Below are positions 3,582-54,750 of a DNA stretch of 64,000 nucleotides, piece by piece (the stretch's first letter is position 1; each line of letters begins with the position of its first letter). Location of the stretch: contig CM046348.1 in the NCBI GenBank assembly GCA_025403435.1, forward strand, positions 26,905,899-26,969,898, read 5' to 3'. Under the pieces are notes generated by a model. The model made no database searches and was not told where the DNA came from. It saw nothing but the letters and a program-made list of their open reading frames with translations. This stretch comes from Artocarpus heterophyllus (Eukaryota; Streptophyta; Magnoliopsida; Rosales; Moraceae). The position numbers were made by a program, and so were the translations under genes.

Positions 3582-6500
3582 TGTAACGCCCCCTTATGGA
3601 CGTCACAGATATGGTTACATTCATTATTTTTGCCATTATTTAAGATAAACTATTTGATTGAAACATAATTTGGATTCATACTCCAGGATCCATGCATATG
3701 TTTTTTTATCAGTATTAATAAATCACTTGATTAAACACATTCTTTAAATAGTTTATCACACCAAATAATAAAACCATAATTTAAATAAAAACAACACAGC
3801 ATTTAAAATCTACTTGCACAGTTTGGTAGACTAAACATCAGACTTCGGTAGGGCGAACTTGGCTGGTAGTTCAAACTTCAACCACCGATAGGGCGTCTGA
3901 GGCTCTGCAAAATTGGGTTTTAAAGTTAATAAGATGGGCATGCTAATACTGACACCGGCAGACTGACCAATAATGATCAGTAGGCCAAACTACCGTTAAA
4001 AACAAAATTCTTAATTTAAAACAAGTCTCAATATTTCAAATGAAAAAGACAAATATAAATCCTGTAAAATTATAAAAACATAGTTCCAATCTCTAAAAAA
4101 AAACTTTTCAAATAAACATGCTCAGATAAATAAACGTACTCAGAAAACAAAACATAGTTTATAACTTTTTGAAACTTCTTTGGCGTGTTCCATTTTCAAT
4201 CTATCGTTCTTTGCTTATTTCAGATGCCTATCCTCACCCTCCACCTAATCTATGATCTTCTTACCCTTATTTGCAACATGACGTAAAACTGAGTAAGCAA
4301 AAGCTTAGTAAGTACATTTTTATCTTACATTGTAAAACATTATATGAAAACATCATAACCATAATCATCATCATTATCATCATAAAAGTGCACTAGGCAT
4401 AGTTTCGTATAGAACATATCTTTTGTTAACATTAACCATATTAAAAACCTTGTTCATTTTATCTTTAGGGGCCCAAGTGTTGCACCATATCACAATTATA
4501 GGCATGCAGTCGTGAGAGGAGAGGGGTAGCTAATCCCAAACCAAACACGACATCATAAACATAAATGTAACATTACGTTGGGTGTGCAACACTTTTTTTT
4601 AGGTGATACATGTATACATATTTATACTTTCATACTTTAAAATACGTCATCATCTAATGTGCATTACTTTTGATAAATCAAACTTTCATAATAGAACATC
4701 AATAACACCATCAAAGATTCATCATAGAAATCATCATAAACATGAATTTCAAACTTTTCACAAACCACATCCTATTGCAGGTGAGAATGTACTTACTTGT
4801 TTAGCTTACTCAACCCTTATGGTAGGTGACGTCGTCGTGGTCTTGATGTGCTCACTCCTTAGTGTGTTCATGTCATACATTCATTTTAAAAAAATTAACA
4901 TTTATTTACATTTAAAGAATCATCCATTACCATAACACATATACACCCGCAATTCAAAAAAAAAAAAAAATACATGAACACAAATATCTGCTTGAACTTT
5001 ATGTATTCCTAATTTGATAACTCACAATTTGTACACAACTAAGGTATGAGACTTTAAAGGGGCAAAGCTAACACATAAACATAATATCATAATTTTTCGT
5101 TGGCCATAAAAATTTCATTTGGTATTTAAAACAAGTCACAATTTCATGTCACAAAATCTGTCAGCAGTAACAAAACAGTGAGCAGTCCATACTTACATTC
5201 ATAAAATAAATTATCAATAGGCTAAAATAATTTCATAAAAATACTACATATAATAGACACTTAAAATTACAAAATAACCAAAAATCACCTTAAATAAATT
5301 CAATACAATCCAAAACGTGTATTTGAATTTAGAGACAAAAATGACTTTAAACAAGTCAGTTAGTGAGTTACATGCGATCATCATTCCCAAACAATTTGAA
5401 TAAATTTATTTAGACCCTAAAATTTATATGACAACTTATTAACATATAATTATAGAAGCACAAAAAGTTTCATCACCCAATAAATTCATTTAGTCATACA
5501 AAAATGTCACACAACATAAGTACGAACAATCCACTGATAAAGTAGTGTCATAATGTAGTCTTAATGAAAATTCAATAAAATATTCATCAAATCATCACAA
5601 AATTTTCCAGTCCATAACTTAACATATACATGAACATATTTGTAGAATTTCGTAGGAAATAACAATCATTTGCACTTTGAACAAAACCTATATTTTTGTG
5701 CAACACAACCAATCAACAACAATTTTCTATGAGTGGCAGAGAGAATTTCATATCTCAACGTAGAAAAATCCAATAAATGTGAAATTTGGCAGAACATCAC
5801 ATAACATATTAAAATTTCAGAGCAAACAAAAATTCTTAGGAAAAGTTACAGAAGTCGGATGACAGGGGAACATTACATTTTAGAAGCACCGAGAACGAGT
5901 TCTTACCTTAAAACAAATTCTTCTCAATTTACCTTTGAATTCACCCAAGGAAAATCCAATATTTCTTCCTATTGTTTGTAGGGGAATAATGGAGAGTGGA
6001 AGGAGAAGAAAACGTGGAGACGGAAGAAGAAAAAAAAAGTATGAGAGAATATGTCTATGAGAGAGAGAGAGAGAGAGTGAAATTATCGTGAAAAAAATGA
6101 GAATGGCTCAAAAGGAGAAGTTATTCTTCTCTATAATATCAAAAATTTTCTAACTAAGTTTAGGGTAGATTCGTGTGGGAAAGGTGAGAAATAGAAGAAA
6201 GTCAAATTGATTAAGCTCCACTTACCATATTTCAACTTTCAAAAATAGGAAACCATATCAAATAATTCAATCATCATTAAAAGTCAAACATTTTATTACC
6301 AAAATTAAGGAAACAGACCACAAATATGCTAATCAATCACAATTTATTATCCAATTATATCCAATCATAAATATCAAAATTTTGGGAGGTTTCTACTGAT
6401 TGCTCGTCAGCTGACTTCGGCCTACCAACTGCCCTGTTCGGCCTACCGAAGACATGAGCTCCGACCTGCCGATTAAGTTCGTTGGCCTACTGTTGCGTGA

Positions 6501-6779
6501 GGTACAATTCAGCCTACTGAACTTGAAGGATCGGTCTGTCAAACTGCCATGCATAAATACTAATACGTAACAAAAATTAATTTTTTAATTAAATAATTAT
6601 TAAGCATACAACGTAATTGACATGAACATCTTGAACACATCAATTCCACGTGACCGTCACCTATCATAATACTCAGAATAAAATAGTTAGTAATATTATA
6701 TCATATATCAATAAGGAAATTACTAACGGCGTTATTCAATTGACATAATCCGTTACATGAAAATTTGATAGGTGTTACA
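3582..6779 (-). mobile_element. 5' LTR of element II (about 3.2 kb), parent of the array's LTR segment
   Basis: On the minus strand the LTR starts TGTAACACCTATCAAATTTT at 6779 and ends GGGGGCGTTACA at 3582, next to the primer-binding site. Its start and end match the LTRs at 47870 and 54535. It contains a (GA)n tract near 6060, pyrimidine/purine-rich leader-like sequence and two GGCCTACC-type clusters (about 3840-3990 and 6415-6540). The half from 5343 to 6779 is the part copied into every unit of the CLE array; the half from 3582 to 5342 occurs only here. This shows the LTR was in place before the amplification. Confidence 0.86.
6415..6540 (-). repeat. TTCGGCCTACC motif cluster in LTR segment (copied in all units)
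   Basis: Several degenerate copies of TTCGGCCTACC/GACCTGCCGA lie within about 125 bp, close to the start of the minus-strand LTR. Because it is inside the amplified unit it is present nine times in the array, always about 1.5 kb upstream of a CLE start codon. Confidence 0.75.
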
Positions 6780-7666
6780 ATTCATAATTACCTTAAGGAT
6801 AAATTATGTTTTACCTATTTGATTATTTTTATCTTATTTTCCATTATCTCACCATTGGAAAACTTACTATCCATAAATAGTATACTATTTGGTTACAACT
6901 ATCTATCCAAGTGGTTGAGTGCACTAGTTTTCTAATTACAAGATAATGTCTATAAAAGAATATCATTACTCTACAAAAGAGCTATGAATTTCATATTTAG
7001 GAATAACGCGTCGATGTCAATCAAGAGTCATATCTTTAATGCACCAGTATGCATACCTTCACCTAATTCAGTATGTCACCTTTTGGTACATCAAAAGACA
7101 AAAGTAAAAAATACAGACCCATTAATTCATTTTAGGATTAAGGTACAACACATAAGATTTTCTAAAGTGAATTGCGTTAGACAACTGGAATTATTAATCA
7201 ATTTAATTTAAATTTTTATCCCGATCCAATATATCATTATCTATAACAATATACCAATGTTTCTACTTGTAGAGTCCAAGTCTGATGAAATTTTGATAGA
7301 TGGACCACTCAAATCTCTTGGTTTTTCAATAAGAGTACCGCTACAACTTAATTTAGACACACTAATCTTATAAAATAGGTCTCAAAGGATTTTTTTGCAA
7401 CACCAAAGTTTCAACTACTATAATATAAAGCTTTCATATACTATAACATAACGCTTTCATATATTATAGCATTTATGTTCCAACTTGGTTCTTAAATAGT
7501 GCTCTCTAAAGTTGAATTTACTACTCATATTCAATAAAACCAATATTAGAGATTGGAAGAGATATAGAATCTGGTATTATATTGGGCATTTAATTTCACA
7601 ACTCTGCCTTTTATTAAAGACAACTAATATTTGTATGGATTTTAGCACATTCTTTGAAGATTTCTC

Positions 7667-7714
7667 ATGCCATATGTAGCACTTCACAATTGATGCCATA
7701 TGTAGCATTTCACA
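7667..7714 (+). promoter_or_regulatory. 22-bp direct repeat in CLE promoter
   Basis: The sequence ATGCCATATGTAGCACTTCA appears twice in 48 bp, the second copy (7693-7714) differing at one base, each followed by CA. Both copies are also kept at about 53967-54014 upstream of the diverged CLE pseudogene, where much of the surrounding sequence has changed. The core CCATATG(G/T) resembles a CArG/E-box-like site, but no factor can be assigned from sequence alone. Confidence 0.5.
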
Positions 7715-8032
7715 TTGCTAGCATTTTACTGCAGAATTAATATGTCCTTATTGATTGGCTATGATCCTATCCCTTCAAAATGCTACATCACATAATATCT
7801 CTCTTTCTATGTACAAAAGTAAATACAAAATCCTCTCATTAACTTCCTTCGTAATTAATACGGAGGATGTGGGTACATCATAATTAGGCTCATATTTCAT
7901 TCCATTCTCATCCAAGAAAATAATAAATTTAATATTTATTTCATGCCTCGATTTGGAACAAAATCCCTCCTTTATAATCTCAAAAACACCTACAAGATCC
8001 TGAACCTTAATTTGGCTCCCTCATTTTGAGCC

Positions 8033-8039
8033 TATAAAA
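8033..8039 (+). promoter_or_regulatory. TATA box of CLE copy 1 (same offset in copies 2-9)
   Basis: TATAAAA lies 44 bp before the first ATG of the ORF. The same box occurs at 12021, 15332, 19050, 22768, 26666, 30160, 34058 and 37550 for copies 2 to 9. Transcription would be expected to start about 30 bp downstream, giving a very short leader before Met1 (8077) or about 35 nt before Met9 (8101). In the dead paralogue the equivalent site reads CAATAAAATG, so the box is damaged there. Confidence 0.65.
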
Positions 8040-8076
8040 CGCATGTCTTTTTTGATTTAAAGTAAACACCTTTTGC

Positions 8077-9351
8077 ATGTCTAGTTCAACTTTAACAAAG
8101 ATGTCCATAACAATGCTCTCTTCTGTCATCTTCTTCTTTTTCCTACTCTTTTCCATTCTCTCTAAAGCACAAACAATAAATGTAGGAGTCATCAAACAAG
8201 CTTCAGATCCAATTCATGATCCTAATCCTCTTCTTCCTCCTGCTAAGGTACAAAAAATAAATGCAAGAATCAACAGAGATGCTCCAGCAGGGCCAGATCC
8301 AATTCATCATCCTCCTGCTAAGGGACAAAAAATAAATGCAAGAACCAACAGAGATGCTCCAGCAGGGCCAGATCCAATTCATCATCCTGCTCCTCGTGCT
8401 CCCCCTCTTAAGGCACAAAAAATGAGTGCAGGATTCACCAAACAAGCTCTAGGAGGGCCATATCCAATTCATGATCCTAATCCTCTTCTTCCTCCTGCTA
8501 AGGTACAAAAAATAAATGCAAGAATCAACAGAGATGCTCCAGCAGGGCCAGATCCAATTCATCATCCTCCTGCTAAGGTACAAAAAATAAATGCAAGAAT
8601 CAACAGAGATGCTCCAGCAGGGCCAGATCCAATTCATCATCCTCCTGCTAAGGTACAAAAAATAAATGCAAGAATCAACAGAGATGCTCCAGCAGGGCCA
8701 GATCCAATTCATCATCCTCCTGCTAAGGGACAAAAAATAAATGCAAGAACCAACAGAGATGCTCCAGCAGGGCCAGATCCAATTCATCATCCTGCTCCTG
8801 GTGCTCCCCCTCTTAAGGCACAAAAAATGAGTGCAGGATTCACCAGAGAAACTCCAGGAGGGCCAAATCCAATTCAAAATCCTGCTCCTGGTGCTCCCCC
8901 TCTTAAGGCACAAAAAATGAGTGCAGGATTCACCAGAGAAACTCCAGGAGGGCCAAATCCAATTCAAAATCCTGCTCCTGGTGCTCCCCCTCTTAAGGCA
9001 CAAAAAATGAGTGCAGGATTCACCAGAGAAACTCCAGGAGGGCCAAATCCAATTCAAAATCCTGCTCCTGGTGCTCCCCCTCTTAAGGCACAAAAAATGA
9101 GTGCAGGATTCACCAGAGAAACTCCAGGAGGGCCAAATCCAATTCAAAATCCTGCTCCTGGTGCTCCCCCTCTTAAGGCACAAAAAATGAGTGCAGGATT
9201 CACCAGAGAAACTCCAGGAGGGCCAAATCCAATTCAAAATCCTGCTCCTGGTGCTCCCCCTCTTAAGGCACAAAAAATGAGTGCAGGATTCACCAGAGAA
9301 ACTCCAGGAGGGCCAAATCCAATTCAAAATGACTTTAAACAAGTCAGTTAG
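8077..9351 (+). CDS. Multi-CLE peptide precursor, copy 1 (13 motifs, 424 aa)
   Basis: Secreted precursor for CLE-type signalling peptides. Residues 1-31 form a signal peptide: a short polar N-terminus, a hydrophobic core around VIFFFFLLFSIL, and likely cleavage after SKA. A shortened motif, KQASDPIHD, sits at 40-48. Full 12-residue motifs follow: RDAPAGPDPIHH at 67, 92, 152, 177, 202 and 227; KQALGGPYPIHD at 122; RETPGGPNPIQN at 257, 287, 317, 347, 377 and 407. Spacers of 13 or 18 residues are rich in Pro, Lys, Arg and Gln. The motifs keep CLE positions R1, P4, G6, P7, P9 and 12. CLE peptides are normally cut out, hydroxylated on Pro, and sensed by leucine-rich-repeat receptor kinases; action here is inferred. 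The last six residues, DFKQVS, come from antisense LTR sequence. Met9 could be the true start. Confidence 0.85.
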   Translation: MSSSTLTKMSITMLSSVIFFFFLLFSILSKAQTINVGVIKQASDPIHDPNPLLPPAKVQKINARINRDAPAGPDPIHHPPAKGQKINARTNRDAPAGPDPIHHPAPRAPPLKAQKMSAGFTKQALGGPYPIHDPNPLLPPAKVQKINARINRDAPAGPDPIHHPPAKVQKINARINRDAPAGPDPIHHPPAKVQKINARINRDAPAGPDPIHHPPAKGQKINARTNRDAPAGPDPIHHPAPGAPPLKAQKMSAGFTRETPGGPNPIQNPAPGAPPLKAQKMSAGFTRETPGGPNPIQNPAPGAPPLKAQKMSAGFTRETPGGPNPIQNPAPGAPPLKAQKMSAGFTRETPGGPNPIQNPAPGAPPLKAQKMSAGFTRETPGGPNPIQNPAPGAPPLKAQKMSAGFTRETPGGPNPIQNDFKQVS

Positions 9352-12300
9352 TGAGTTACATGCGATCATCATTCCCAAACAATTTGAATAAATTTATTTA
9401 GACCCTAAAATTTATATGACAACTTATTAACATATAATTATAGAAGCACAAAAAGTTTCATCACCCAATAAATTCATTTAGTCATACAAAAATGTCACAC
9501 AACATAAGTACGAACAATCCACTGATAAAGTAGTGTCATAATGTAGTCTTAATGAAAATTCAATAAAATATTCATCAAATCATCACAAAATTTTCCAGTC
9601 CATAACTTAACATATACATGAACATATTTGTAGAATTTCGTAGGAAATAACAATCATTTGCACTTTGAACAAAACCTATATTTTTGTGCAACACAACCAA
9701 TCAACAACAATTTTCTATGAGTGGCAGAGAGAATTTCATATCTCAACGTAGAAAAATCCAATAAATGTGAAATTTGGCAGAACATCACATAACATATTAA
9801 AATTTCAGAGCAAACAAAAATTCTTAGGAAAAGTTACAGAAGTCGGATGACAGGGGAACATTACATTTTAGAAGCACCGAGAACGAGTTCTTACCTTAAA
9901 ACAAATTCTTCTCAATTTACCTTTGAATTCACCCAAGGAAAATCCAATATTTCTTCCTATTGTTTGTAGGGGAATAATGGAGAGTGGAAGGAGAAGAAAA
10001 CGTGGAGACGGAAGAAGAAAAAAAAAGTATGAGAGAATATGTCTATGAGAGAGAGAGAGAGAGAGTGAAATTATCGTGAAAAAAATGAGAATGGCTCAAA
10101 AGGAGAAGTTATTCTTCTCTATAATATCAAAAATTTTCTAACTAAGTTTAGGGTAGATTCGTGTGGGAAAGGTGAGAAATAGAAGAAAGTCAAATTGATT
10201 AAGCTCCACTTACCATATTTCAACTTTCAAAAATAGGAAACCATATCAAATAATTCAATCATCATTAAAAGTCAAACATTTTATTACCAAAATTAAGGAA
10301 ACAGACCACAAATATGCTAATCAATCACAATTTATTATCCAATTATATCCAATCATAAATATCAAAATTTTGGGAGGTTTCTACTGATTGCTCGTCAGCT
10401 GACTTCGGCCTACCAACTGCCCTGTTCGGCCTACCGAAGACATGAGCTCCGACCTGCCGATTAAGTTCGTTGGCCTACTGTTGCGTGAGGTACAATTCAG
10501 CCTACTGAACTTGAAGGATCGGTCTGTCAAACTGCCATGCATAAATACTAATACGTAACAAAAATTAATTTTTTAATTAAATAATTATTAAGCATACAAC
10601 GTAATTGACATGAACATCTTGAACACATCAATTCCACGTGACCGTCACCTATCATAATACTCAGAATAAAATAGTTAGTAATATTATATCATATATCAAT
10701 AAGGAAATTACTAACGGCGTTATTCAATTGACATAATCCGTTACATGAAAATTTGATAGGTGTTACAATTCATAATTACCTTAAGGATAAATTATGTTTT
10801 ACCTATTTGATTATTTTTATCTTATTTTCCATTATCTCACCATTGGAAAACTTACTATCCATAAATAGTATACTATTTGGTTACAACTATCTATCCAAGT
10901 GGTTGAGTGCACTAGTTTTCTAATTACAAGATAATGTCTATAAAAGAATATCATTACTCTACAAAAGAGCTATGAATTTCATATTTAGGAATAACGCGTC
11001 GATGTCAATCAAGAGTCATATCTTTAATGCACCAGTATGCATACCTTCACCTAATTCAGTATGTCACCTTTTGGTACATCAAAAGACAAAAGTAAAAAAT
11101 ACAGACCCATTAATTCATTTTAGGATTAAGGTACAACACATAAGATTTTCTAAAGTGAATTGCGTTAGACAACTGGAATTATTAATCAATTTAATTTAAA
11201 TTTTTATCCTGATCCAATATATCATTATCTATAACAATATACCAATGTTTCTACTTGTAGAGTCCAAGTCTGATGAAATTTTGATAGATGGACCACTCAA
11301 ATCTCTTGGTTTTTCAATAAGAGTACCGCTACAACTTAATTTAGACACACTAATCTTATAAAATAGGTCTCAAAGGATTTTTTTGCAACACCAAAGTTTC
11401 AACTACTATAATATAAAGCTTTCATATACTATAACATAACGCTTTCATATATTATAGCATTTATGTTCCAACTTGGTTCTTAAATAGTGCTCTCTAAAGT
11501 TGAATTTACTACTCATATTCAATAAAACCAATATTAGAGATTGGAAGAGATATAGAATCTGGTATTATATTGGGCATTTAATTTCACAACTCTGCCTTTT
11601 ATTAAAGACAACTAATATTTGTATGGATTTTAGCACATTCTTTGAAGATTTCTCATGCCATATGTAGCACTTCACAATTGATGCCATATGTAGCATTTCA
11701 CATTGCTAGCATTTTACTGCAGAATTAATATGTCCTTATTGATTGGCTATGATCCTATCCCTTCAAAATGCTACATCACATAATATCTCTCTTTCTATGT
11801 ACAAAAGTAAATACAAAATCCTCTCATTAACTTCCTTCGTAATTAATACGGAGGATGTGGGTACATCATAATTAGGCTCATATTTCATTCCATTCTCATC
11901 CAAGAAAATAATAAATTTAATATTTATTTCATGCCTCGATTTGGAACAAAATCCCTCCTTTATAATCTCAAAAACACCTACAAGATCCTGAACCTTAATT
12001 TGGCTCCCTCATTTTGAGCCTATAAAACGCATGTCTTTTTTGATTTAAAGTAAACACCTTTTGCATGTCTAGTTCAACTTTAACAAAGATGTCCATAACA
12101 ATGCTCTCTTCTGTCATCTTCTTCTTTTTCCTACTCTTTTCCATTCTCTCTAAAGCACAAACAATAAATGTAGGAGTCATCAAACAAGCTTCAGATCCAA
12201 TTCATGATCCTAATCCTCTTCTTCCTCCTGCTAAGGTACAAAAAATAAATGCAAGAATCAACAGAGATGCTCCAGCAGGGCCAGATCCAATTCATCATCC

Positions 12301-12643
12301 TCCTGCTAAGGGACAAAAAATAAATGCAAGAACCAACAGAGATGCTCCAGCAGGGCCAGATCCAATTCATCATCCTGCTCCTCGTGCTCCCCCTCTTAAG
12401 GCACAAAAAATGAGTGCAGGATTCACCAGAGAAACTCCAGGATGGCCAAATCCAATTCAAAATCCTGCTCCTGGTGCTCCCCCTCTTAAGGCACAAAAAA
12501 TGAGTGCAGGATTCACCAGAGAAACTCCAGGAGGGCCAAATCCAATTCAAAATCCTGCTCCTGGTGCTCCCCCTCTTAAGGCACAAAAAATGAGTGCAGG
12601 ATTCACCAGAGAAACTCCAGGAGGGCCAAATCCAATTCAAAAT
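9331..12643 (+). repeat. Array unit 2
   Basis: The LTR-derived part is 9331-10767, followed by upstream DNA and copy 2. At 3,313 bp it is the shortest unit, because the coding tract lacks the block running from the KQAL motif through the second RDAP cluster. A private C-to-T change is seen near 11210 (TATCCTGATCC instead of TATCCCGATCC). Confidence 0.93.
9387..9392 (+). terminator. Possible poly(A) signal within LTR sequence after copy 1 (repeated after copies 2-8)
   Basis: AATAAA lies 36 nt past the stop codon, inside the antisense LTR segment that replaces the native 3' end. The same hexamer lies at the same distance after copy 2 (12700) and in the other chimeric copies. It could supply a new 3' end to transcripts that lost the native signal at 39121. 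This rests on one short motif in AT-rich DNA. Confidence 0.4.
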
Positions 12644-12664
12644 GACTTTAAACAAGTCAGTTAG
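12065..12664 (+). CDS. Multi-CLE peptide precursor, copy 2 (5 motifs, 199 aa)
   Basis: Shortest member of the array. It has the same signal peptide and shortened KQASDPIHD motif as copy 1, then RDAPAGPDPIHH at 67 and 92, RETPGWPNPIQN at 122, and RETPGGPNPIQN at 152 and 182, then DFKQVS. The Trp at motif position 6 replaces a Gly that is almost invariant in CLE peptides, so that motif is probably inactive. The missing middle block is bounded by two copies of the PAP-APPLKAQKMSAGFT spacer, which suggests loss by recombination between repeats. Reading frame and promoter are intact. Confidence 0.83.
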   Translation: MSSSTLTKMSITMLSSVIFFFFLLFSILSKAQTINVGVIKQASDPIHDPNPLLPPAKVQKINARINRDAPAGPDPIHHPPAKGQKINARTNRDAPAGPDPIHHPAPRAPPLKAQKMSAGFTRETPGWPNPIQNPAPGAPPLKAQKMSAGFTRETPGGPNPIQNPAPGAPPLKAQKMSAGFTRETPGGPNPIQNDFKQVS

Positions 12665-16359: not shown

Positions 16360-16380
16360 GACTTTAAACAAGTCAGTTAG
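15376..16380 (+). CDS. Multi-CLE peptide precursor, copy 3 (10 motifs, 334 aa)
   Basis: Same architecture as copy 1 with three terminal repeats fewer: RDAPAGPDPIHH at 67, 92, 152, 177, 202 and 227, KQALGGPYPIHD at 122, and RETPGGPNPIQN at 257, 287 and 317, ending DFKQVS. The spacer before the first RETP motif has PAPG, as in copies 1 and 4, against PAPR in copies 5, 7 and 9; this groups 1, 3 and 4. A silent A-to-G change in the codon for Ser43 (TCA to TCG, near 15505) is private to this copy. Confidence 0.84.
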   Translation: MSSSTLTKMSITMLSSVIFFFFLLFSILSKAQTINVGVIKQASDPIHDPNPLLPPAKVQKINARINRDAPAGPDPIHHPPAKGQKINARTNRDAPAGPDPIHHPAPRAPPLKAQKMSAGFTKQALGGPYPIHDPNPLLPPAKVQKINARINRDAPAGPDPIHHPPAKVQKINARINRDAPAGPDPIHHPPAKVQKINARINRDAPAGPDPIHHPPAKGQKINARTNRDAPAGPDPIHHPAPGAPPLKAQKMSAGFTRETPGGPNPIQNPAPGAPPLKAQKMSAGFTRETPGGPNPIQNPAPGAPPLKAQKMSAGFTRETPGGPNPIQNDFKQVS

Positions 16381-26900: not shown

Positions 26901-27468
26901 AATCAACAGAGATGCTCCAGCAGGGCCAGATCCAATTCATCATCCTCCTGCTAAGGGACAAAAAATAAATGCAAGAACCAACAGAGATGCTCCAGCAGGG
27001 CCAGATCCAATTCATCATCCTGCTCCTCGTGCTCCCCCTCTTAAGGCACAAAAAATGAGTGCAGGATTCACCAGAGAAACTCCAGGAGGGCCAAATCCAA
27101 TTCAAAATCCTGCTCCTTGTGCTCCCCCTCTTAAGGCACAAAAAATGAGTGCAGGATTCACCAGAGAAACTCCAGGAGGGCCAAATCCAATTCAAAATCC
27201 TGCTCCTGGTGCTCCCCCTCTTAAGGCACAAAAAATGAGTGCAGGATTCACCAGAGAAACTCCAGGAGGGCCAAATCCAATTCAAAATCCTGCTCCTGGT
27301 GCTCCCCCTCTTAAGGCACAAAAAATGAGTGCAGGATTCACCAGAGAAACTCCAGGAGGGCCAAATCCAATTCAAAATCCTGCTCCTGGTGCTCCCCCTC
27401 TTAAGGCACAAAAAATGAGTGCAGGATTCACCAGAGAAACTCCAGGAGGGCCAAATCCAATTCAAAAT
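23976..27468 (+). repeat. Array unit 6
   Basis: The LTR-derived part is 23976-25412, then upstream DNA and the short-form gene copy 6. It has the same length as unit 8 (3,493 bp). Confidence 0.93.
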
Positions 27469-27489
27469 GACTTTAAACAAGTCAGTTAG
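26710..27489 (+). CDS. Multi-CLE peptide precursor, copy 6 (7 motifs, 259 aa)
   Basis: Short form lacking the KQAL block. Motifs: RDAPAGPDPIHH at 67 and 92, RETPGGPNPIQN at 122, 152, 182, 212 and 242, then DFKQVS. One spacer carries a Cys (PAPCAPP in place of PAPGAPP, near residue 137), the only Cys I see in the mature part of any copy; copy 8 shares it. Confidence 0.85.
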   Translation: MSSSTLTKMSITMLSSVIFFFFLLFSILSKAQTINVGVIKQASDPIHDPNPLLPPAKVQKINARINRDAPAGPDPIHHPPAKGQKINARTNRDAPAGPDPIHHPAPRAPPLKAQKMSAGFTRETPGGPNPIQNPAPCAPPLKAQKMSAGFTRETPGGPNPIQNPAPGAPPLKAQKMSAGFTRETPGGPNPIQNPAPGAPPLKAQKMSAGFTRETPGGPNPIQNPAPGAPPLKAQKMSAGFTRETPGGPNPIQNDFKQVS

Positions 27490-30400
27490 TGAGTTACATG
27501 CGATCATCATTCCCAAACAATTTGAATAAATTTATTTAGACCCTAAAATTTATATGACAACTTATTAACATATAATTATAGAAGCACAAAAAGTTTCATC
27601 ACCCAATAAATTCATTTAGTCATACAAAAATGTCACACAACATAAGTACGAACAATCCACTGATAAAGTAGTGTCATAATGTAGTCTTAATGAAAATTCA
27701 ATAAAATATTCATCAAATCATCACAAAATTTTCCAGTCCATAACTTAACATATACATGAACATATTTGTAGAATTTCGTAGGAAATAACAATCATTTGCA
27801 CTTTGAACAAAACCTATATTTTTGTGCAACACAACCAATCAACAACAATTTTCTATGAGTGGCAGAGAGAATTTCATATCTCAACGTAGAAAAATCCAAT
27901 AAATGTGAAATTTGGCAGAACATCACATAACATATTAAAATTTCAGAGCAAACAAAAATTCTTAGGAAAAGTTACAGAAGTCGGATGACAGGGGAACATT
28001 ACATTTTAGAAGCACCGAGAACGAGTTCTTACCTTAAAACAAATTCTTCTCAATTTACCTTTGAATTCACCCAAGGAAAATCCAATATTTCTTCCTATTG
28101 TTTGTAGGGGAATAATGGAGAGTGGAAGGAGAAGAAAACGTGGAGACGGAAGAAGAAAAAAAAAGTATGAGAGAATATGTCTATGAGAGAGAGAGAGAGA
28201 GAGTGAAATTATCGTGAAAAAAATGAGAATGGCTCAAAAGGAGAAGTTATTCTTCTCTATAATATCAAAAATTTTCTAACTAAGTTTAGGGTAGATTCGT
28301 GTGGGAAAGGTGAGAAATAGAAGAAAGTCAAATTGATTAAGCTCCACTTACCATATTTCAACTTTCAAAAATAGGAAACCATATCAAATAATTCAATCAT
28401 CATTAAAAGTCAAACATTTTATTACCAAAATTAAGGAAACAGACCACAAATATGCTAATCAATCACAATTTATTATCCAATTATATCCAATCATAAATAT
28501 CAAAATTTTGGGAGGTTTCTACTGATTGCTCGTCAGCTGACTTCGGCCTACCAACTGCCCTGTTCGGCCTACCGAAGACATGAGCTCCGACCTGCCGATT
28601 AAGTTCGTTGGCCTACTGTTGCGTGAGGTACAATTCAGCCTACTAAACTTGAAGGATCGGTCTGTCAAACTGCCATGCATAAATACTAATACGTAACAAA
28701 AATTAATTTTTTAATTAAATAATTATTAAGCATACAACGTAATTGACATGAACATCTTGAACACATCAATTCCACGTGACCGTCACCTATCATAATACTC
28801 AGAATAAAATAGTTAGTAATATTATATCATATATCAATAAGGAAATTACTAACGGCGTTATTCAATTGACATAATCCGTTACATGAAAATTTGATAGGTG
28901 TTACAATTCATAATTACCTTAAGGATAAATTATGTTTTACCTATTTGATTATTTTTATCTTATTTTCCATTATCTCACCATTGGAAAACTTACTATCCAT
29001 AAATAGTATACTATTTGGTTACAACTATCTATCCAAGTGGTTGAGTGCACTAGTTTTCTAATTACAAGATAATGTCTATAAAAGAATATCATTACTCTAC
29101 AAAAGAGCTATGAATTTCATATTTAGGAATAACGCGTCGATGTCAATCAAGAGTCATATCTTTAATGCACCAGTATGCATACCTTCACCTAATTCAGTAT
29201 GTCACCTTTTGGTACATCAAAAGACAAAAGTAAAAAATACAGACCCATTAATTCATTTTAGGATTAAGGTACAACACATAAGATTTTCTAAAGTGAATTG
29301 CGTTAGACAACTGGAATTATTAATCAATTTAATTTAAATTTTTATCCCGATCCAATATATCATTATCTATAACAATATACCAATGTTTCTACTTGTAGAG
29401 TCCAAGTCTGATGAAATTTTGATAGATGGACCACTCAAATCTCTTGGTTTTTCAATAAGAGTACCGCTACAACTTAATTTAGACACACTAATCTTATAAA
29501 ATAGGTCTCAAAGGATTTTTTTTGCAACACCAAAGTTTCAACTACTATAATATAAAGCTTTCATATACTATAACATAACGCTTTCATATATTATAGCATT
29601 TATGTTCCAACTTGGTTCTTAAATAGTGCTCTCTAAAGTTGAATTTACTACTCATATGCAATAAAACCAATATTAGAGATTGGAAGAGATATAGAATCTG
29701 GTATTATATTGGGCATTTAATTTCACAACTCTGCCTTTTATTAAAGACAACTAATATTTGTATGGATTTTAGCACATTCTTTGAAGATTTCTCATGCCAT
29801 ATGTAGCACTTCACAATTGATGCCATATGTAGCATTTCACATTGCTAGCATTTTACTGCAGAATTAATATGTCCTTATTGATTGGCTATGATCCTATCCC
29901 TTCAAAATGCTACATCACATAATATCTCTCTTTCTATGTACAAAAGTAAATACAAAATCCTCTCATTAACTTCCTTCGTAATTAATACGGAGGATGTGGG
30001 TACATCATAATTAGGCTCATATTTCATTCCATTCTCATCCAAGAAAATAATAAATTTAATATTTATTTCATGCCTCGATTTGGAACAAAATCCCTCCTTT
30101 ATAATCTCAAAAACACCTACAAGATCCTGAACCTTAATTTGGCTCCCTCATTTTGAGCCTATAAAACGCATGTCTTTTTTGATTTAAAGTAAACACCTTT
30201 TGCATGTCTAGTTCAACTTTAACAAAGATGTCCATAACAATGCTCTCTTCTGTCATCTTCTTCTTTTTCCTACTCTTTTCCATTCTCTCTAAAGCACAAA
30301 CAATAAATGTAGGAGTCATCAAACAAGCTTCAGATCCAATTCATGATCCTAATCCTCTTCTTCCTCCTGCTAAGGTACAAAAAATAAATGCAAGAATCAA

Positions 30401-31367
30401 CAGAGATGCTCCAGCAGGGCCAGATCCAATTCATCATCCTCCTGCTAAGGGACAAAAAATAAATGCAAGAACCAACAGAGATGCTCCAGCAGGGCCAGAT
30501 CCAATTCATCATCCTGCTCCTCGTGCTCCCCCTCTTAAGGCACAAAAAATGAGTGCAGGATTCACCAAACAAGCTCTAGGAGGGCCATATCCAATTCATG
30601 ATCCTAATCCTCTTCTTCCTCCTGCTAAGGTACAAAAAATAAATGCAAGAATCAACAGAGATGCTCCAGCAGGGCCAGATCCAATTCATCATCCTCCTGC
30701 TAAGGTACAAAAAATAAATGCAAGAATCAACAGAGATGCTCCAGCAGGGCCAGATCCAATTCATCATCCTCCTGCTAAGGTACAAAAAATAAATGCAAGA
30801 ATCAACAGAGATGCTCCAGCAGGGCCAGATCCAATTCATCATCCTCCTGCTAAGGGACAAAAAATAAATGCAAGAACCAACAGAGATGCTCCAGCAGGGC
30901 CAGATCCAATTCATCATCCTGCTCCTCGTGCTCCCCCTCTTAAGGCACAAAAAATGAGTGCAGGATTCACCAGAGAAACTCCAGGAGGGCCAAATCCAAT
31001 TCAAAATCCTGCTCCTGGTGCTCCCCCTCTTAAGGCACAAAAAATGAGTGCAGGATTCACCAGAGAAACTCCAGGAGGGCCAAATCCAATTCAAAATCCT
31101 GCTCCTGGTGCTCCCCCTCTTAAGGTACAAAAAATGAGTGCAGGATTCACCAGAGAAACTCCAGGAGGGCCAAATCCAATTCAAAATCCTGCTCCTGGTG
31201 CTCCCCCTCTTAAGGCACAAAAAATGAGTGCAGGATTCACCAGAGAAACTCCAGGAGGGCCAAATCCAATTCAAAATCCTGCTCCTGGTGCTCCCCCTCT
31301 TAAGGCACAAAAAATGAGTGCAGGATTCACCAGAGAAACTCCAGGAGGGCCAAATCCAATTCAAAAT
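27469..31367 (+). repeat. Array unit 7
   Basis: The LTR-derived part is 27469-28905. It matches unit 5 except for one extra T in a T-run near 29520 and CATATGCAA near 29654, a variant also found in unit 3. The mixture suggests conversion or exchange between non-adjacent units. Confidence 0.93.
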
Positions 31368-31388
31368 GACTTTAAACAAGTCAGTTAG
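30204..31388 (+). CDS. Multi-CLE peptide precursor, copy 7 (12 motifs, 394 aa)
   Basis: The protein appears identical to copy 5, including the KVQKMSAG spacer variant before residue 317. It therefore derives from the same dimer duplication. It is intact from signal peptide to the LTR-derived DFKQVS tail. Confidence 0.85.
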   Translation: MSSSTLTKMSITMLSSVIFFFFLLFSILSKAQTINVGVIKQASDPIHDPNPLLPPAKVQKINARINRDAPAGPDPIHHPPAKGQKINARTNRDAPAGPDPIHHPAPRAPPLKAQKMSAGFTKQALGGPYPIHDPNPLLPPAKVQKINARINRDAPAGPDPIHHPPAKVQKINARINRDAPAGPDPIHHPPAKVQKINARINRDAPAGPDPIHHPPAKGQKINARTNRDAPAGPDPIHHPAPRAPPLKAQKMSAGFTRETPGGPNPIQNPAPGAPPLKAQKMSAGFTRETPGGPNPIQNPAPGAPPLKVQKMSAGFTRETPGGPNPIQNPAPGAPPLKAQKMSAGFTRETPGGPNPIQNPAPGAPPLKAQKMSAGFTRETPGGPNPIQNDFKQVS

Positions 31389-34300
31389 TGAGTTACATGC
31401 GATCATCATTCCCAAACAATTTGAATAAATTTATTTAGACCCTAAAATTTATATGACAACTTATTAACATATAATTATAGAAGCACAAAAAGTTTCATCA
31501 CCCAATAAATTCATTTAGTCATACAAAAATGTCACACAACATAAGTACGAACAATCCACTGATAAAGTAGTGTCATAATGTAGTCTTAATGAAAATTCAA
31601 TAAAATATTCATCAAATCATCACAAAATTTTCCAGTCCATAACTTAACATATACATGAACATATTTGTAGAATTTCGTAGGAAATAACAATCATTTGCAC
31701 TTTGAACAAAACCTATATTTTTGTGCAACACAACCAATCAACAACAATTTTCTATGAGTGGCAGAGAGAATTTCATATCTCAACGTAGAAAAATCCAATA
31801 AATGTGAAATTTGGCAGAACATCACATAACATATTAAAATTTCAGAGCAAACAAAAATTCTTAGGAAAAGTTACAGAAGTCGGATGACAGGGGAACATTA
31901 CATTTTAGAAGCACCGAGAACGAGTTCTTACCTTAAAACAAATTCTTCTCAATTTACCTTTGAATTCACCCAAGGAAAATCCAATATTTCTTCCTATTGT
32001 TTGTAGGGGAATAATGGAGAGTGGAAGGAGAAGAAAACGTGGAGACGGAAGAAGAAAAAAAAAGTATGAGAGAATATGTCTATGAGAGAGAGAGAGAGAG
32101 AGTGAAATTATCGTGAAAAAAATGAGAATGGCTCAAAAGGAGAAGTTATTCTTCTCTATAATATCAAAAATTTTCTAACTAAGTTTAGGGTAGATTCGTG
32201 TGGGAAAGGTGAGAAATAGAAGAAAGTCAAATTGATTAAGCTCCACTTACCATATTTCAACTTTCAAAAATAGGAAACCATATCAAATAATTCAATCATC
32301 ATTAAAAGTCAAACATTTTATTACCAAAATTAAGGAAACAGACCACAAATATGCTAATCAATCACAATTTATTATCCAATTATATCCAATCATAAATATC
32401 AAAATTTTGGGAGGTTTCTACTGATTGCTCGTCAGCTGACTTCGGCCTACCAACTGCCCTGTTCGGCCTACCGAAGACATGAGCTCCGACCTGCCGATTA
32501 AGTTCGTTGGCCTACTGTTGCGTGAGGTACAATTCAGCCTACTAAACTTGAAGGATCGGTCTGTCAAACTGCCATGCATAAATACTAATACGTAACAAAA
32601 ATTAATTTTTTAATTAAATAATTATTAAGCATACAACGTAATTGACATGAACATCTTGAACACATCAATTCCACGTGACCGTCACCTATCATAATACTCA
32701 GAATAAAATAGTTAGTAATATTATATCATATATCAATAAGGAAATTACTAACGGCGTTATTCAATTGACATAATCCGTTACATGAAAATTTGATAGGTGT
32801 TACAATTCATAATTACCTTAAGGATAAATTATGTTTTACCTATTTGATTATTTTTATCTTATTTTCCATTATCTCACCATTGGAAAACTTACTATCCATA
32901 AATAGTATACTATTTGGTTACAACTATCTATCCAAGTGGTTGAGTGCACTAGTTTTCTAATTACAAGATAATGTCTATAAAAGAATATCATTACTCTACA
33001 AAAGAGCTATGAATTTCATATTTAGGAATAACGCGTCGATGTCAATCAAGAGTCATATCTTTAATGCACCAGTATGCATACCTTCACCTAATTCAGTATG
33101 TCACCTTTTGGTACATCAAAAGACAAAAGTAAAAAATACAGACCCATTAATTCATTTTAGGATTAAGGTACAACACATAAGATTTTCTAAAGTGAATTGC
33201 GTTAGACAACTGGAATTATTAATCAATTTAATTTAAATTTTTATCCCGATCCAATATATCATTATCTATAACAATATACCAATGTTTCTACTTGTAGAGT
33301 CCAAGTCTGATGAAATTTTGATAGATGGACCACTCAAATCTCTTGGTTTTTCAATAAGAGTACCGCTACAACTTAATTTAGACACACTAATCTTATAAAA
33401 TAGGTCTCAAAGGATTTTTTTGCAACACCAAAGTTTCAACTACTATAATATAAAGCTTTCATATACTATAACATAACGCTTTCATATATTATAGCATTTA
33501 TGTTCCAACTTGGTTCTTAAATAGTGCTCTCTAAAGTTGAATTTACTACTCATATTCAATAAAACCAATATTAGAGATTGGAAGAGATATAGAATCTGGT
33601 ATTATATTGGGCATTTAATTTCACAACTCTGCCTTTTATTAAAGACAACTAATATTTGTATGGATTTTAGCACATTCTTTGAAGATTTCTCATGCCATAT
33701 GTAGCACTTCACAATTGATGCCATATGTAGCATTTCACATTGCTAGCATTTTACTGCAGAATTAATATGTCCTTATTGATTGGCTATGATCCTATCCCTT
33801 CAAAATGCTACATCACATAATATCTCTCTTTCTATGTACAAAAGTAAATACAAAATCCTCTCATTAACTTCCTTCGTAATTAATACGGAGGATGTGGGTA
33901 CATCATAATTAGGCTCATATTTCATTCCATTCTCATCCAAGAAAATAATAAATTTAATATTTATTTCATGCCTCGATTTGGAACAAAATCCCTCCTTTAT
34001 AATCTCAAAAACACCTACAAGATCCTGAACCTTAATTTGGCTCCCTCATTTTGAGCCTATAAAACGCATGTCTTTTTTGATTTAAAGTAAACACCTTTTG
34101 CATGTCTAGTTCAACTTTAACAAAGATGTCCATAACAATGCTCTCTTCTGTCATCTTCTTCTTTTTCCTACTCTTTTCCATTCTCTCTAAAGCACAAACA
34201 ATAAATGTAGGAGTCATCAAACAAGCTTCAGATCCAATTCATGATCCTAATCCTCTTCTTCCTCCTGCTAAGGTACAAAAAATAAATGCAAGAATCAACA

Positions 34301-34860
34301 GAGATGCTCCAGCAGGGCCAGATCCAATTCATCATCCTCCTGCTAAGGGACAAAAAATAAATGCAAGAACCAACAGAGATGCTCCAGCAGGGCCAGATCC
34401 AATTCATCATCCTGCTCCTCGTGCTCCCCCTCTTAAGGCACAAAAAATGAGTGCAGGATTCACCAGAGAAACTCCAGGAGGGCCAAATCCAATTCAAAAT
34501 CCTGCTCCTTGTGCTCCCCCTCTTAAGGCACAAAAAATGAGTGCAGGATTCACCAGAGAAACTCCAGGAGGGCCAAATCCAATTCAAAATCCTGCTCCTG
34601 GTGCTCCCCCTCTTAAGGCACAAAAAATGAGTGCAGGATTCACCAGAGAAACTCCAGGAGGGCCAAATCCAATTCAAAATCCTGCTCCTGGTGCTCCCCC
34701 TCTTAAGGCACAAAAAATGAGTGCAGGATTCACCAGAGAAACTCCAGGAGGGCCAAATCCAATTCAAAATCCTGCTCCTGGTGCTCCCCCTCTTAAGGCA
34801 CAAAAAATGAGTGCAGGATTCACCAGAGAAACTCCAGGAGGGCCAAATCCAATTCAAAAT
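31368..34860 (+). repeat. Array unit 8
   Basis: The LTR-derived part is 31368-32804. Same length and gene as unit 6. It is the last unit whose coding tract is cut at the chimeric joint. Confidence 0.93.
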
Positions 34861-34881
34861 GACTTTAAACAAGTCAGTTAG
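34102..34881 (+). CDS. Multi-CLE peptide precursor, copy 8 (7 motifs, 259 aa)
   Basis: The protein appears identical to copy 6, including the PAPCAPP spacer. It is the second member of the duplicated 7.39-kb dimer. Confidence 0.85.
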   Translation: MSSSTLTKMSITMLSSVIFFFFLLFSILSKAQTINVGVIKQASDPIHDPNPLLPPAKVQKINARINRDAPAGPDPIHHPPAKGQKINARTNRDAPAGPDPIHHPAPRAPPLKAQKMSAGFTRETPGGPNPIQNPAPCAPPLKAQKMSAGFTRETPGGPNPIQNPAPGAPPLKAQKMSAGFTRETPGGPNPIQNPAPGAPPLKAQKMSAGFTRETPGGPNPIQNPAPGAPPLKAQKMSAGFTRETPGGPNPIQNDFKQVS

Positions 34882-37800
34882 TGAGTTACATGCGATCATC
34901 ATTCCCAAACAATTTGAATAAATTTATTTAGACCCTAAAATTTATATGACAACTTATTAACATATAATTATAGAAGCACAAAAAGTTTCATCACCCAATA
35001 AATTCATTTAGTCATACAAAAATGTCACACAACATAAGTACGAACAATCCACTGATAAAGTAGTGTCATAATGTAGTCTTAATGAAAATTCAATAAAATA
35101 TTCATCAAATCATCACAAAATTTTCCAGTCCATAACTTAACATATACATGAACATATTTGTAGAATTTCGTAGGAAATAACAATCATTTGCACTTTGAAC
35201 AAAACCTATATTTTTGTGCAACACAACCAATCAACAACAATTTTCTATGAGTGGCAGAGAGAATTTCATATCTCAACGTAGAAAAATCCAATAAATGTGA
35301 AATTTGGCAGAACATCACATAACATATTAAAATTTCAGAGCAAACAAAAATTCTTAGGAAAAGTTACAGAAGTCGGATGACAGGGGAACATTACATTTTA
35401 GAAGCACCGAGAACGAGTTCTTACCTTAAAACAAATTCTTCTCAATTTACCTTTGAATTCACCCAAGGAAAATCCAATATTTCTTCCTATTGTTTGTAGG
35501 GGAATAATGGAGAGTGGAAGGAGAAGAAAACGTGGAGACGGAAGAAGAAAAAAAAAGTATGAGAGAATATGTCTATGAGAGAGAGAGAGAGAGAGTGAAA
35601 TTATCGTGAAAAAAATGAGAATGGCTCAAAAGGAGAAGTTATTCTTCTCTATAATATCAAAAATTTTCTAACTAAGTTTAGGGTAGATTCGTGTGGGAAA
35701 GGTGAGAAATAGAAGAAAGTCAAATTGATTAAGCTCCACTTACCATATTTCAACTTTCAAAAATAGGAAACCATATCAAATAATTCAATCATCATTAAAA
35801 GTCAAACATTTTATTACCAAAATTAAGGAAACAGACCACAAATATGCTAATCAATCACAATTTATTATCCAATTATATCCAATCATAAATATCAAAATTT
35901 TGGGAGGTTTCTACTGATTGCTCGTCAGCTGACTTCGGCCTACCAACTGCCCTGTTCGGCCTACCGAAGACATGAGCTCCGACCTGCCGATTAAGTTCGT
36001 TGGCCTACTGTTGCGTGAGGTACAATTCAGCCTACTAACTTGAAGGATCGGTCTGTCAAACTGCCATGCATAAATACTAATACGTAACAAAAATTAATTT
36101 TTTAATTAAATAATTATTAAGCATACAACGTAATTGACATGAACATCTTGAACACATCAATTCCACGTGACCGTCACCTATCATAATACTCAGAATAAAA
36201 TAGTTAGTAATATTATATCATATATCAATAAGGAAATTACTAACGGCGTTATTCAATTGACATAATCCGTTACATGAAAATTTGATAGGTGTTACAATTC
36301 ATAATTACCTTAAGGATAAATTATGTTTTACCTATTTGATTATTTTTATCTTATTTTCCATTATCTCACCATTGGAAAACTTACTATCCATAAATAGTAT
36401 ACTATTTGGTTACAACTATCTATCCAAGTGGTTGAGTGCACTAGTTTTCTAATTACAAGATAATGTCTATAAAAGAATATCATTACTCTACAAAAGAGCT
36501 ATGAATTTCATATTTAGGAATAACGCGTCGATGTCAATCAAGAGTCATATCTTTAATGCACCAGTATGCATACCTTCACCTAATTCAGTATGTCACCTTT
36601 TGGTACATCAAAAGACAAAAGTAAAAAATACAGACCCATTAATTCATTTTAGGATTAAGGTACAACACATAAGATTTTCTAAAGTGAATTGCGTTAGACA
36701 ACTGGAATTATTAATCAATTTAATTTAAATTTTTATCCCGATCCAATATATCATTATCTATAACAATATACCAATGTTTCTACTTGTAGAGTCCAAGTCT
36801 GATGAAATTTTGATAGATGGACCACTCAAATCTCTTGGTTTTTCAATAAGAGTACCGCTACAACTTAATTTAGACACACTAATCTTATAAAATAGGTCTC
36901 AAAGGATTTTTTTGCAACACCAAAGTTTCAACTACTATAATATAAAGCTTTCATATACTATAACATAACGCTTTCATATATTATAGCATTTATGTTCCAA
37001 CTTGGTTCTTAAATAGTGCTCTCTAAAGTTGAATTTACTACTCATATTCAATAAAACCAATATTAGAGATTGGAAGAGATATAGAATCTGGTATTATATT
37101 GGGCATTTAATTTCACAACTCTGCCTTTTATTAAAGACAACTAATATTTGTATGGATTTTAGCACATTCTTTGAAGATTTCTCATGCCATATGTAGCACT
37201 TCACAATTGATGCCATATGTAGCATTTCACATTGCTAGCATTTTACTGCAGAATTAATATGTCCTTATTGATTGGCTATGATCCTATCCCTTCAAAATGC
37301 TACATCACATAATATCTCTCTTTCTATGTACAAAAGTAAATACAAAATCCTCTCATTAACTTCCTTCGTAATTAATACGGAGGATGTGGGTACATCATAA
37401 TTAGGCTCATATTTCATTCCATTCTCATCCAAGAAAATAATAAATTTAATATTTATTTCATGCCTCGATTTGGAACAAAATCCCTCCTTTATAATCTCAA
37501 AAACACCTACAAGATCCTGAACCTTAATTTGGCTCCCTCATTTTGAGCCTATAAAACGCATGTCTTTTTTGATTTAAAGTAAACACCTTTTGCATGTCTA
37601 GTTCAACTTTAACAAAGATGTCCATAACAATGCTCTCTTCTGTCATCTTCTTCTTTTTCCTACTCTTTTCCATTCTCTCTAAAGCACAAACAATAAATGT
37701 AGGAGTCATCAAACAAGCTTCAGATCCAATTCATGATCCTAATCCTCTTCTTCCTCCTGCTAAGGTACAAAAAATAAATGCAAGAATCAACAGAGATGCT

Positions 37801-38682
37801 CCAGCAGGGCCAGATCCAATTCATCATCCTCCTGCTAAGGGACAAAAAATAAATGCAAGAACCAACAGAGATGCTCCAGCAGGGCCAGATCCAATTCATC
37901 ATCCTGCTCCTCGTGCTCCCCCTCTTAAGGCACAAAAAATGAGTGCAGGATTCACCAAACAAGCTCTAGGAGGGCCATATCCAATTCATGATCCTAATCC
38001 TCTTCTTCCTCCTGCTAAGGTACAAAAAATAAATGCAAGAATCAACAGAGATGCTCCAGCAGGGCCAGATCCAATTCATCATCCTCCTGCTAAGGTACAA
38101 AAAATAAATGCAAGAATCAACAGAGATGCTCCAGCAGGGCCAGATCCAATTCATCATCCTCCTGCTAAGGGACAAAAAATAAATGCAAGAACCAACAGAG
38201 ATGCTCCAGCAGGGCCAGATCCAATTCATCATCCTGCTCCTCGTGCTCCCCCTCTTAAGGCACAAAAAATGAGTGCAGGATTCACCAGAGAAACTCCAGG
38301 AGGGCCAAATCCAATTCAAAATCCTGCTCCTGGTGCTCCCCCTCTTAAGGCACAAAAAATGAGTGCAGGATTCACCAGAGAAACTCCAGGAGGGCCAAAT
38401 CCAATTCAAAATCCTGCTCCTGGTGCTCCCCCTCTTAAGGCACAAAAAATGAGTGCAGGATTCACCAGAGAAACTCCAGGAGGGCCAAATCCAATTCAAA
38501 ATCCTGCTCCTGGTGCTCCCCCTCTTAAGGCACAAAAAATGAGTGCAGGATTCACCAGAGAAACTCCAGGAGGGCCAAATCCAATTCAAAATCCTGCTCC
38601 TGGTGCTCCCCCTCTTAAGGCACAAAAAATGAGTGCAGGATTCACCAGAGAAACTCCAGGAGGGCCAAATCCAATTCAAAAT
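34861..38682 (+). repeat. Array unit 9 (terminal unit, joined to unique sequence)
   Basis: The LTR-derived part is 34861-36296, with a 1-bp deletion near 36036 (CCTACTAACTT). Homology to the other unit ends would stop at 38682, after the fifth RETP motif. Here the reading frame instead continues into coding sequence found nowhere else in the array. This marks it as the copy that keeps the original 3' end. Confidence 0.9.
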
Positions 38683-39066
38683 CCTGCTCCTAGTGCTCCC
38701 CCTCTTAAGGCACAAAAAATGAGTGCAGGATTCACCAGACAAGCTCCAGGAGGGCCAGATCCAATTCATAATCCTACTCCTCGTGCTCCCCCTCTTGAGG
38801 CACAAAAAGTTAATGTAGGAATCACCAGACAAGCTCCAGGAGGGCTAGATCCAATTCATGATCCTGCTCCTCCTCTTTCCCTTCCCAAAGCACGAACAAT
38901 AAATGAAAAAATCACTAAACAGGCTCCAGGAGGACTAGATCCAATTCATGATCCTAATAGTCTTCTAACAATAAATGCAAGAATCACTAGACAAGCTCCA
39001 GGAAGGCAAGATCCTATTCATGACCCTCCTATAGGCAAAGAAGTTGTTAGGAATGTACAAGGATAA
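37594..39066 (+). CDS. Multi-CLE peptide precursor, copy 9, full-length form (15 motifs, 490 aa)
   Basis: Likely founder-type gene. Signal peptide at 1-31 and shortened motif at 40-48. Full motifs: RDAPAGPDPIHH at 67, 92, 152, 177 and 202; KQALGGPYPIHD at 122; RETPGGPNPIQN at 232, 262, 292, 322 and 352. Four C-terminal motifs found only here follow: RQAPGGPDPIHN at 382, RQAPGGLDPIHD at 412, KQAPGGLDPIHD at 442 and RQAPGRQDPIHD at 466, then the tail PPIGKEVVRNVQG. The first of these four is closest to the textbook CLE consensus; in the later three P7 is Leu or Gln. The C-terminal spacers are more varied than the repeats before them, as expected for older, unhomogenised repeats. A poly(A) signal lies at 39121. 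Confidence 0.87.
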   Translation: MSSSTLTKMSITMLSSVIFFFFLLFSILSKAQTINVGVIKQASDPIHDPNPLLPPAKVQKINARINRDAPAGPDPIHHPPAKGQKINARTNRDAPAGPDPIHHPAPRAPPLKAQKMSAGFTKQALGGPYPIHDPNPLLPPAKVQKINARINRDAPAGPDPIHHPPAKVQKINARINRDAPAGPDPIHHPPAKGQKINARTNRDAPAGPDPIHHPAPRAPPLKAQKMSAGFTRETPGGPNPIQNPAPGAPPLKAQKMSAGFTRETPGGPNPIQNPAPGAPPLKAQKMSAGFTRETPGGPNPIQNPAPGAPPLKAQKMSAGFTRETPGGPNPIQNPAPGAPPLKAQKMSAGFTRETPGGPNPIQNPAPSAPPLKAQKMSAGFTRQAPGGPDPIHNPTPRAPPLEAQKVNVGITRQAPGGLDPIHDPAPPLSLPKARTINEKITKQAPGGLDPIHDPNSLLTINARITRQAPGRQDPIHDPPIGKEVVRNVQG

Positions 39067-54534: not shown

Positions 54535-54750
54535 TGTAACTCCCACCATTTTTCATGTAATGGTTAATGATAGATAATTAACGATGTTAAGTATTTTATT
54601 ATGAAATAGTGTTACTAATTATGTTATTTTAAGTATGATGACAGGTGACGGTCACGTGAAATTGATGTGCTCAAGGTATTCATGTCATTTATGATGTGCC
54701 GAAGGTAGATATTGAATGATTGTTTGTGTGTAGTGTTTTATGTGACACTT

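Follow-up and report, generated by a model that had tools for sequence, protein, structure and literature searches.

A 64,000-base stretch of Artocarpus heterophyllus DNA (contig CM046348.1, positions 26,905,899 to 26,969,898; here called the window), sequenced without any N, carries nine intact open reading frames (ORFs) with repeated CLE-type dodecapeptide motifs. They lie in tandem between positions 8077 and 39066, all on the + strand, and encode proteins of 199-490 amino acids (aa). As to identity and origin, a single plant multi-CLE prepropeptide gene has probably undergone a recent tandem amplification that left nine copies. An earlier note on this DNA had described nine intact multi-CLE ORFs in tandem with about 91 motifs, and both statements hold: 81 motifs fit a strict pattern and 10 are near-variants, giving 91 in all and 5-15 per gene.

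A six-frame scan of the whole window, using a strict pattern that permits Q, S or R at position 11, placed all 81 strict motifs on the + strand and inside the nine ORFs. They comprise 41 copies of RDAPAGPDPIHH (motif A), 39 copies of RETPGGPNPIQN (motif B) and one RQAPGGPDPIHN, for an A-class total of 42 vs 39 for B. The near-variants are six copies of a degenerate module, KQALGGPYPIHD (in six of the nine genes), one RETPGWPNPIQN and three motifs within the tail of gene 9. Gene 1 (8077-9351; 424 aa) holds six A and six B motifs, and gene 2 (12065-12664; 199 aa) two of each plus the RETPGWPNPIQN. Genes 3 (15376-16380) and 4 (19094-20098), both of 334 aa, have six A and three B motifs each. Genes 5 (22812-23996) and 7 (30204-31388) encode identical proteins of 394 aa with six A and five B motifs; genes 6 (26710-27489) and 8 (34102-34881), likewise identical in protein (259 aa), have two A and five B. 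Gene 9 (37594-39066; 490 aa) contains five A, five B, RQAPGGPDPIHN, KQALGGPYPIHD and three degenerate motifs. From gene 1 to gene 9 the strict motifs number 12, 4, 9, 9, 11, 7, 11, 7 and 11. Among the nine, seven proteins and seven coding sequences (CDS) are distinct. At the DNA level a single sequence serves all 41 A motifs and a single sequence all 39 B motifs, while the spacers occur in three variants for A and five for B.

Each protein runs from a hydrophobic leader through a partial motif, KQASDPIHD (one per gene, excluded from the total of 91), into A modules of 25 aa and B modules of 30 aa. Strict motifs are spaced by 25 aa in 26 cases, by 30 aa in 39 and by 60 aa in seven, where the longer interval bridges a degenerate or mutated motif. 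The 25- and 30-aa modules fall within the 24-35 aa of the regular modules of multi-CLE domain precursors. With 4-12 strict motifs in 199-490 aa, the proteins depart from the usual CLE form (60-120 aa, single motif near the C-terminus); the known multi-CLE subset departs from the single-motif form likewise (PMC4526924, PMC5570945, PMC2254619). At the N-terminus of gene 9 the 15-residue Kyte-Doolittle maximum is 2.67 at residue 14, compared with 0.17 beyond residue 32, and S-K-A/Q follows the hydrophobic stretch as a cleavage site that is plausible by eye. This N-terminus resembles a signal peptide and suggests secretion. The earlier note claimed signal peptides, and its reading is supported as regards a hydrophobic leader. 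CLE precursors are typically poor in cysteine and rich in lysine and serine; gene 9 has no Cys and 6.7% Lys, but only 3.9% Ser and as much as 19.3% Pro, and genes 6 and 8 have one Cys each, in the spacer PAPCAPP. TATAAAA stands at -44 of the ATG in nine of nine genes, and the promoter region of gene 1, with this box, spans 6780-8076 (+). As a separate observation, the residues after the leader (SKAQTINVGVIKQASDPIHD; 8077-8220 in gene 1, and in each gene) are similar to a repeat module (KAQKMSAGFT...PIHD), and the module might have originated at the start of the precursor and spread from there.

The 81 strict motifs follow the CLE pattern R-x-x-P-x-G-P-D/N-P-x-H-H/N, except that position 11 of motif B is Q. 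The A and B types both keep R1, P4, G6, P7, P9 and I10. Candidate peptides were scored with a CLE matrix built from 27 Arabidopsis CLE dodecapeptides, with a training range of 27.2-41.4 bits. Scores were 24.6 bits for A, 23.1 for B, 31.8 for RQAPGGPDPIHN and 6.9 for KQALGGPYPIHD. The nine proteins contain 85 12-mers of at least 10 bits (the 81 strict motifs and four of the 10 near-variants), while 500 residue shuffles of these sequences averaged 0.28 such 12-mers and never exceeded 3; the top shuffled 12-mer, at 20.9 bits, lies under both A and B. The CLE motif in the nine proteins is not due to chance. Outside the array, one of 27,542 stop-free 12-mers reached 10 bits; this 12-mer, HDPPNKPDAIHH (+ strand, 63530), was taken as a chance hit. 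Motif A agrees with CLV3 at 8 of 12 residues. Motif B agrees with TDIF also at 8 of 12 (E2, P4, G6, P7, N8, P9, I10 and N12), and differs from it in having R1 for H1, T3 for V3, G5 for S5 and Q11 for S11. It was not assigned to TDIF, histidine being replaced by R at the start of 39 of the 39 B motifs. The two motif forms had been listed in the earlier note, but not treated as different ligand types.

The ends of the genes point to how the array arose. A tail sequence, TGACTTTAAACAAGTCAGTTAG, occurs nine times, starting at 5342, 9330, 12643, 16359, 20077, 23975, 27468, 31367 and 34860. The first copy lies inside a long terminal repeat (LTR), and the other eight directly follow a B motif. At the junction, the gene reads CAATTCAAAAT/CCTGCT, the LTR GACAAAAAT/GACTTT and the joined form CAATTCAAAAT/GACTTT, with five bases, AAAAT, common to gene and LTR. 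The tandem duplication that presumably founded the array has its left breakpoint at 5334-5363, in the LTR interior, where AAAAT is the microhomology with the end of the B motif. The array start given in the earlier note, 5343, is this breakpoint inside the LTR (about 5342) rather than the start of a gene, and the first gene begins at 8077. Genes 1-8 end in DFKQVS, with a stop after six residues, and gene 9 alone has another, longer and more varied tail, which presumably represents the ancestral 3′ end. One tandem duplication at the AAAAT microhomology, where the LTR meets a B-motif end, would have founded the array, and a single event of this kind would account for the DFKQVS ending of eight genes and for the different tail that gene 9 alone has. 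The array may then have grown as units underwent unequal crossing over, and exchanges inside individual genes may have altered the number of motifs. As such, it would illustrate how a modular peptide gene can tolerate a duplication junction inside its coding region.

The LTR fragment is of Ty3/gypsy type (5342-6779, - strand; 5′ end TGTAACACC at 6779) and heads every unit. Positions 4131-6780 align with the reverse complement of 54534-57341 in a single local alignment that runs through 5342, with 63-82% identity per 200-base bin; the two bins at 5200-5599 are the weakest (63% and 69%), and the 6400 bin includes some 100 unaligned bases. The LTR-like starts of the two aligned copies are TGTAACACC and TGTAACTCC.

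Divergence between the units is very low. The regions upstream of the nine ATGs (2733-2736 bp) have seven variable columns, and pairs differ by 0-3 substitutions (mean 1.28). So few differences indicate that the array is young or homogenised. The plant mutation rate is near 7e-9 per site and year; by hand calculation from this rate, the time since common ancestry or homogenisation would be about 30,000 years. The units measure 3.3-4.0 kb, with identity up to 99.9%. Units 5-6 and 7-8 are the product of a second, later duplication: the two-unit block at 20077-27467 recurs at 27468-34859 with a single substitution and a T-run indel over 7.4 kb.

A dead relic of the gene, comprising a promoter and gene start, lies downstream at 53360-54535 (+), where an LTR element that begins at 54535 truncates it. 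Its identity to the array is 84-86%, with matches at 134 of 156 bases in the CDS and at 564 of 655 in the region upstream, and 83.6% identity over 317 bases in a further upstream stretch. The relic has a stop at codon 6, and TATAAAA was not found in the 120 bases 5′ of its ATG. An inverted piece of its upstream region (50436-50942, - strand) matches unit bases 6780-7287 at 75%. Within the relic promoter, at 53492-53900, a 184-base piece is internally duplicated (97.8%). The pseudogene relic, the single microhomology junction and the distinct 3′ end of gene 9 all go beyond what had been noted before.

If the genes act as other CLE genes do, the precursor would be secreted, cleaved on either side of every motif and hydroxylated on its prolines. 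Two kinds of 12-mer would be released to leucine-rich repeat receptor kinases, of CLV1/BAM and perhaps of PXY/TDR type, and extra genes with extra motifs would raise the dose, both ligands being delivered together. Taken alone, we give this dosage step about even chances. A-type peptides speed B-type vascular effects (PMC6747155), and a precursor with both kinds could therefore act as a combined dose. A bolder version holds that the array is a dual-ligand amplifier co-delivering the CLV3-like A and the TDIF-like B, that the growth in copies is a selected, accession-variable dosage switch for a peptide signal controlling growth, and that this switch arose from an LTR junction which by chance left the last B motif whole and placed a stop six residues on; we consider it unlikely. 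The array could serve as a natural experiment on the dose effect of multi-CLE precursors, a question left open by a study in switchgrass. Its copy and motif numbers can be typed across accessions and compared with meristem or vascular traits.

Several results weigh against reading the array as a working multi-CLE gene family. The residue right after a strict motif is proline in 73 of 81 cases and aspartate in 8 of 81, and C-terminal trimming is not obvious because of the directly following proline. Motifs A and B both score slightly under the minimum of the 27 training peptides, and R1 and Q11 set motif B apart from TDIF. Pfam gave no match above cut-off in the three CLE genes scanned (two sub-threshold lines for gene 1). 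Protein database searches with two of the genes as queries returned 114 candidates at E 0.001 and 116 at E 10, none of them scoring as a homologue even though other multi-CLE proteins are known; the short repeats may defeat such a search. A control query, an RNase H ORF from the window, returned 7665 proteins, with plants among the best 120, which shows that plants are represented in the database; the negative for homologues is weak, as none of the known CLE genes served as a control. Between eight repeat types of gene 9, the ratio of nonsynonymous to synonymous differences per site (pN/pS) is 1.55 for the motif and 1.58 for the spacer (overlapping pairs, small numbers), and purifying selection on the motif is not visible in this comparison. 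That nine ORFs are open means little because the copies are so young. Several motifs in a gene need not mean more activity: multi-motif switchgrass genes did not show amplified activity in Arabidopsis, for which the authors offer several possible reasons (PMC8496505). The "extreme dosage amplification" of the earlier note is a plausible but unproven proposal. Nor is positive selection shown: 8 base changes, all nonsynonymous, separate RQAPGGPDPIHN from A and B, but with about 24% synonymous sites the chance of zero synonymous change is about 0.11 by hand calculation, and these changes are therefore no proof of it.

A strong rival, to which we assign somewhat less than even odds, is a neutral and recent satellite-like expansion of real CLE relatives. 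It shares the origin set out above and disputes dosage only: the modules recombine easily, selection gains nothing from the copies, and the majority of them may be silent. The near-zero divergence between units fits this explanation, as do a pN/pS of about 1.5 with no visible constraint, the death of an earlier copy (the relic) and a location among retroelements with an LTR fragment in each unit. Set against it are the nine TATA boxes and ORFs, all intact, which carry little weight in copies so young, and the amplified modules, which are mostly canonical at P4, G6, P7 and P9 (81 of 91); yet KQALGGPYPIHD is carried in six of the nine genes.

One or a few genes could also have been multiplied or mis-joined by the assembler. 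Units that are up to 99.9% identical invite this suspicion, and the differences between 20077-27467 and 27468-34859 are within the range of read error. Such an artefact is nevertheless quite unlikely, given seven distinct proteins and CDS among the nine with differing internal repeat numbers, the different end of gene 9 alone and a left edge that runs on in LTR sequence. The true copy number could be somewhat lower or higher.

Proline makes up 19% of gene 9, no Pfam match was above cut-off in three genes, and NCBI gave one of two radish multi-CLE genes the name of a proline-rich protein (PMC11172632), all of which could suit a proline-rich structural or cell-wall protein with a chance likeness to CLE. 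We regard this as very improbable, as two repeat types both keep the same six CLE residues and shuffles of equal composition yield at most 3 high-scoring 12-mers instead of 85, with a top score of 20.9 bits. An effector-type CLE gene of a plant-feeding nematode is scarcely credible, even if multidomain CLE precursors are known in cyst and root-knot nematodes (PMC8618561), since the RNase H ORF of the window is closest to plant elements among the named matches in the best 120 of 7665, one bacterial label apart.

Grasses, legumes and crucifers all have known precursors of the multi-CLE kind (examples in PMC2254619, PMC5570945, PMC11172632), and the earlier statement that multi-motif precursors are confined to some plants (rice) and cyst nematodes was too narrow, legumes, radish and wheat having them also (PMC4526924, PMC5570945, PMC11172632, PMC6747155). 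In legumes, GmCLE37a/b have six motifs and MtCLE14 seven (PMC4526924), and LjCLE33 has nine (PMC5570945). Radish RsCLEm1/2 have eight (PMC11172632) and wheat TaCLE26 four (PMC6747155). Goad et al. (2017), as cited in PMC8496505, counted 59 multi-motif proteins in 27 species, and the range of motifs has been given as "two to nine" (PMC8618561). In poplar, the available text reports no multi-CLE gene (PMC4776436).

The likenesses and differences vary between these systems. Like the array genes with their putative signal peptide, the legume GmCLE37a/b, MtCLE14 and LjCLE32/33 combine a signal peptide with several motifs in modules of 24-35 aa, and MtCLE14 has four identical motifs; the legume genes have 6-9 motifs, in contrast to 4-12 strict (5-15 in all) and two alternating motif types in the array (PMC4526924, PMC5570945). 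Two further CLE genes lie within 9 kb of MtCLE14 (PMC5570945). Radish RsCLEm1/2 and the Brassica napus CLEm genes are also close to the array; those of radish carry eight motifs in tandem, separated by short spacers; two multi-CLE genes and no array are reported for radish in the text available, vs nine genes here (PMC11172632). Rice CLE75/76 and wheat CLE30/31 share motifs that are mostly 25-37 aa apart, but have at most six, alike within one protein; in wheat CLE30/31 the motifs end in PIHH, followed by one residue and then proline (PMC2254619, Table 2), whereas proline mostly follows directly in the array. In rice CLE75/76 one exon encodes the motifs. CLE genes have also been duplicated locally in tandem in the case of PvCLE15a-d, which differ from the array in being four genes, outside that paper's multi-CLE list, with CLE residues differing between copies (PMC4526924). 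The published examples found have a maximum of nine motifs. What appears new here is a precursor in which strict motifs number as many as 12 (15 if near-variants are counted), the presence of two ligand types in every precursor and a nine-fold array. No tandem array of multi-CLE genes was found in the literature searched, within the bounds of our collection and search terms, and no mention of the motif strings of the array was found there. As far as that literature shows, the array would be the largest known concentration of CLE motifs.

Long antisense ORFs of 164-307 aa accompany all nine genes (8449-9372 on the - strand, and matching places), because the repeat periods are divisible by three. 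They were rejected as genes and attributed to the 75- and 90-base repeats; the best CLE score was -5.4 in the two of nine that were tested.

The surroundings are rich in retroelement sequence. A Ty3/gypsy pol region occurs twice, at 1-1804 and 60573-62371 (84% identical), with RNase H and integrase parts, and an aspartyl protease ORF lies at 59188-59544. A Pfam scan of nine other ORFs of the window found retroelement domains in three and nothing in six. Among the best 120 of the 7665 matches to the RNase H ORF (3-614), the named relatives are Tanacetum, Ulmus, Cucumis, Parasponia, Rosa, Striga, Mikania and Arctium, with one row labelled Bifidobacterium. On the - strand, a 169-aa ORF at 47053-47559 resembles the beginning of a CACTA transposase; a Pfam scan of its ATG-to-stop part yielded nothing significant. 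Tandem repeats of AACCATCATGGAAGG-like stretches are present at 40134-40387 and 62587-63311, with 80% identity over 70 bases between the two places, and are perhaps a miniature transposon family. At 45470-45907, a 217-base sequence is repeated in tandem in two copies that are 90% identical.

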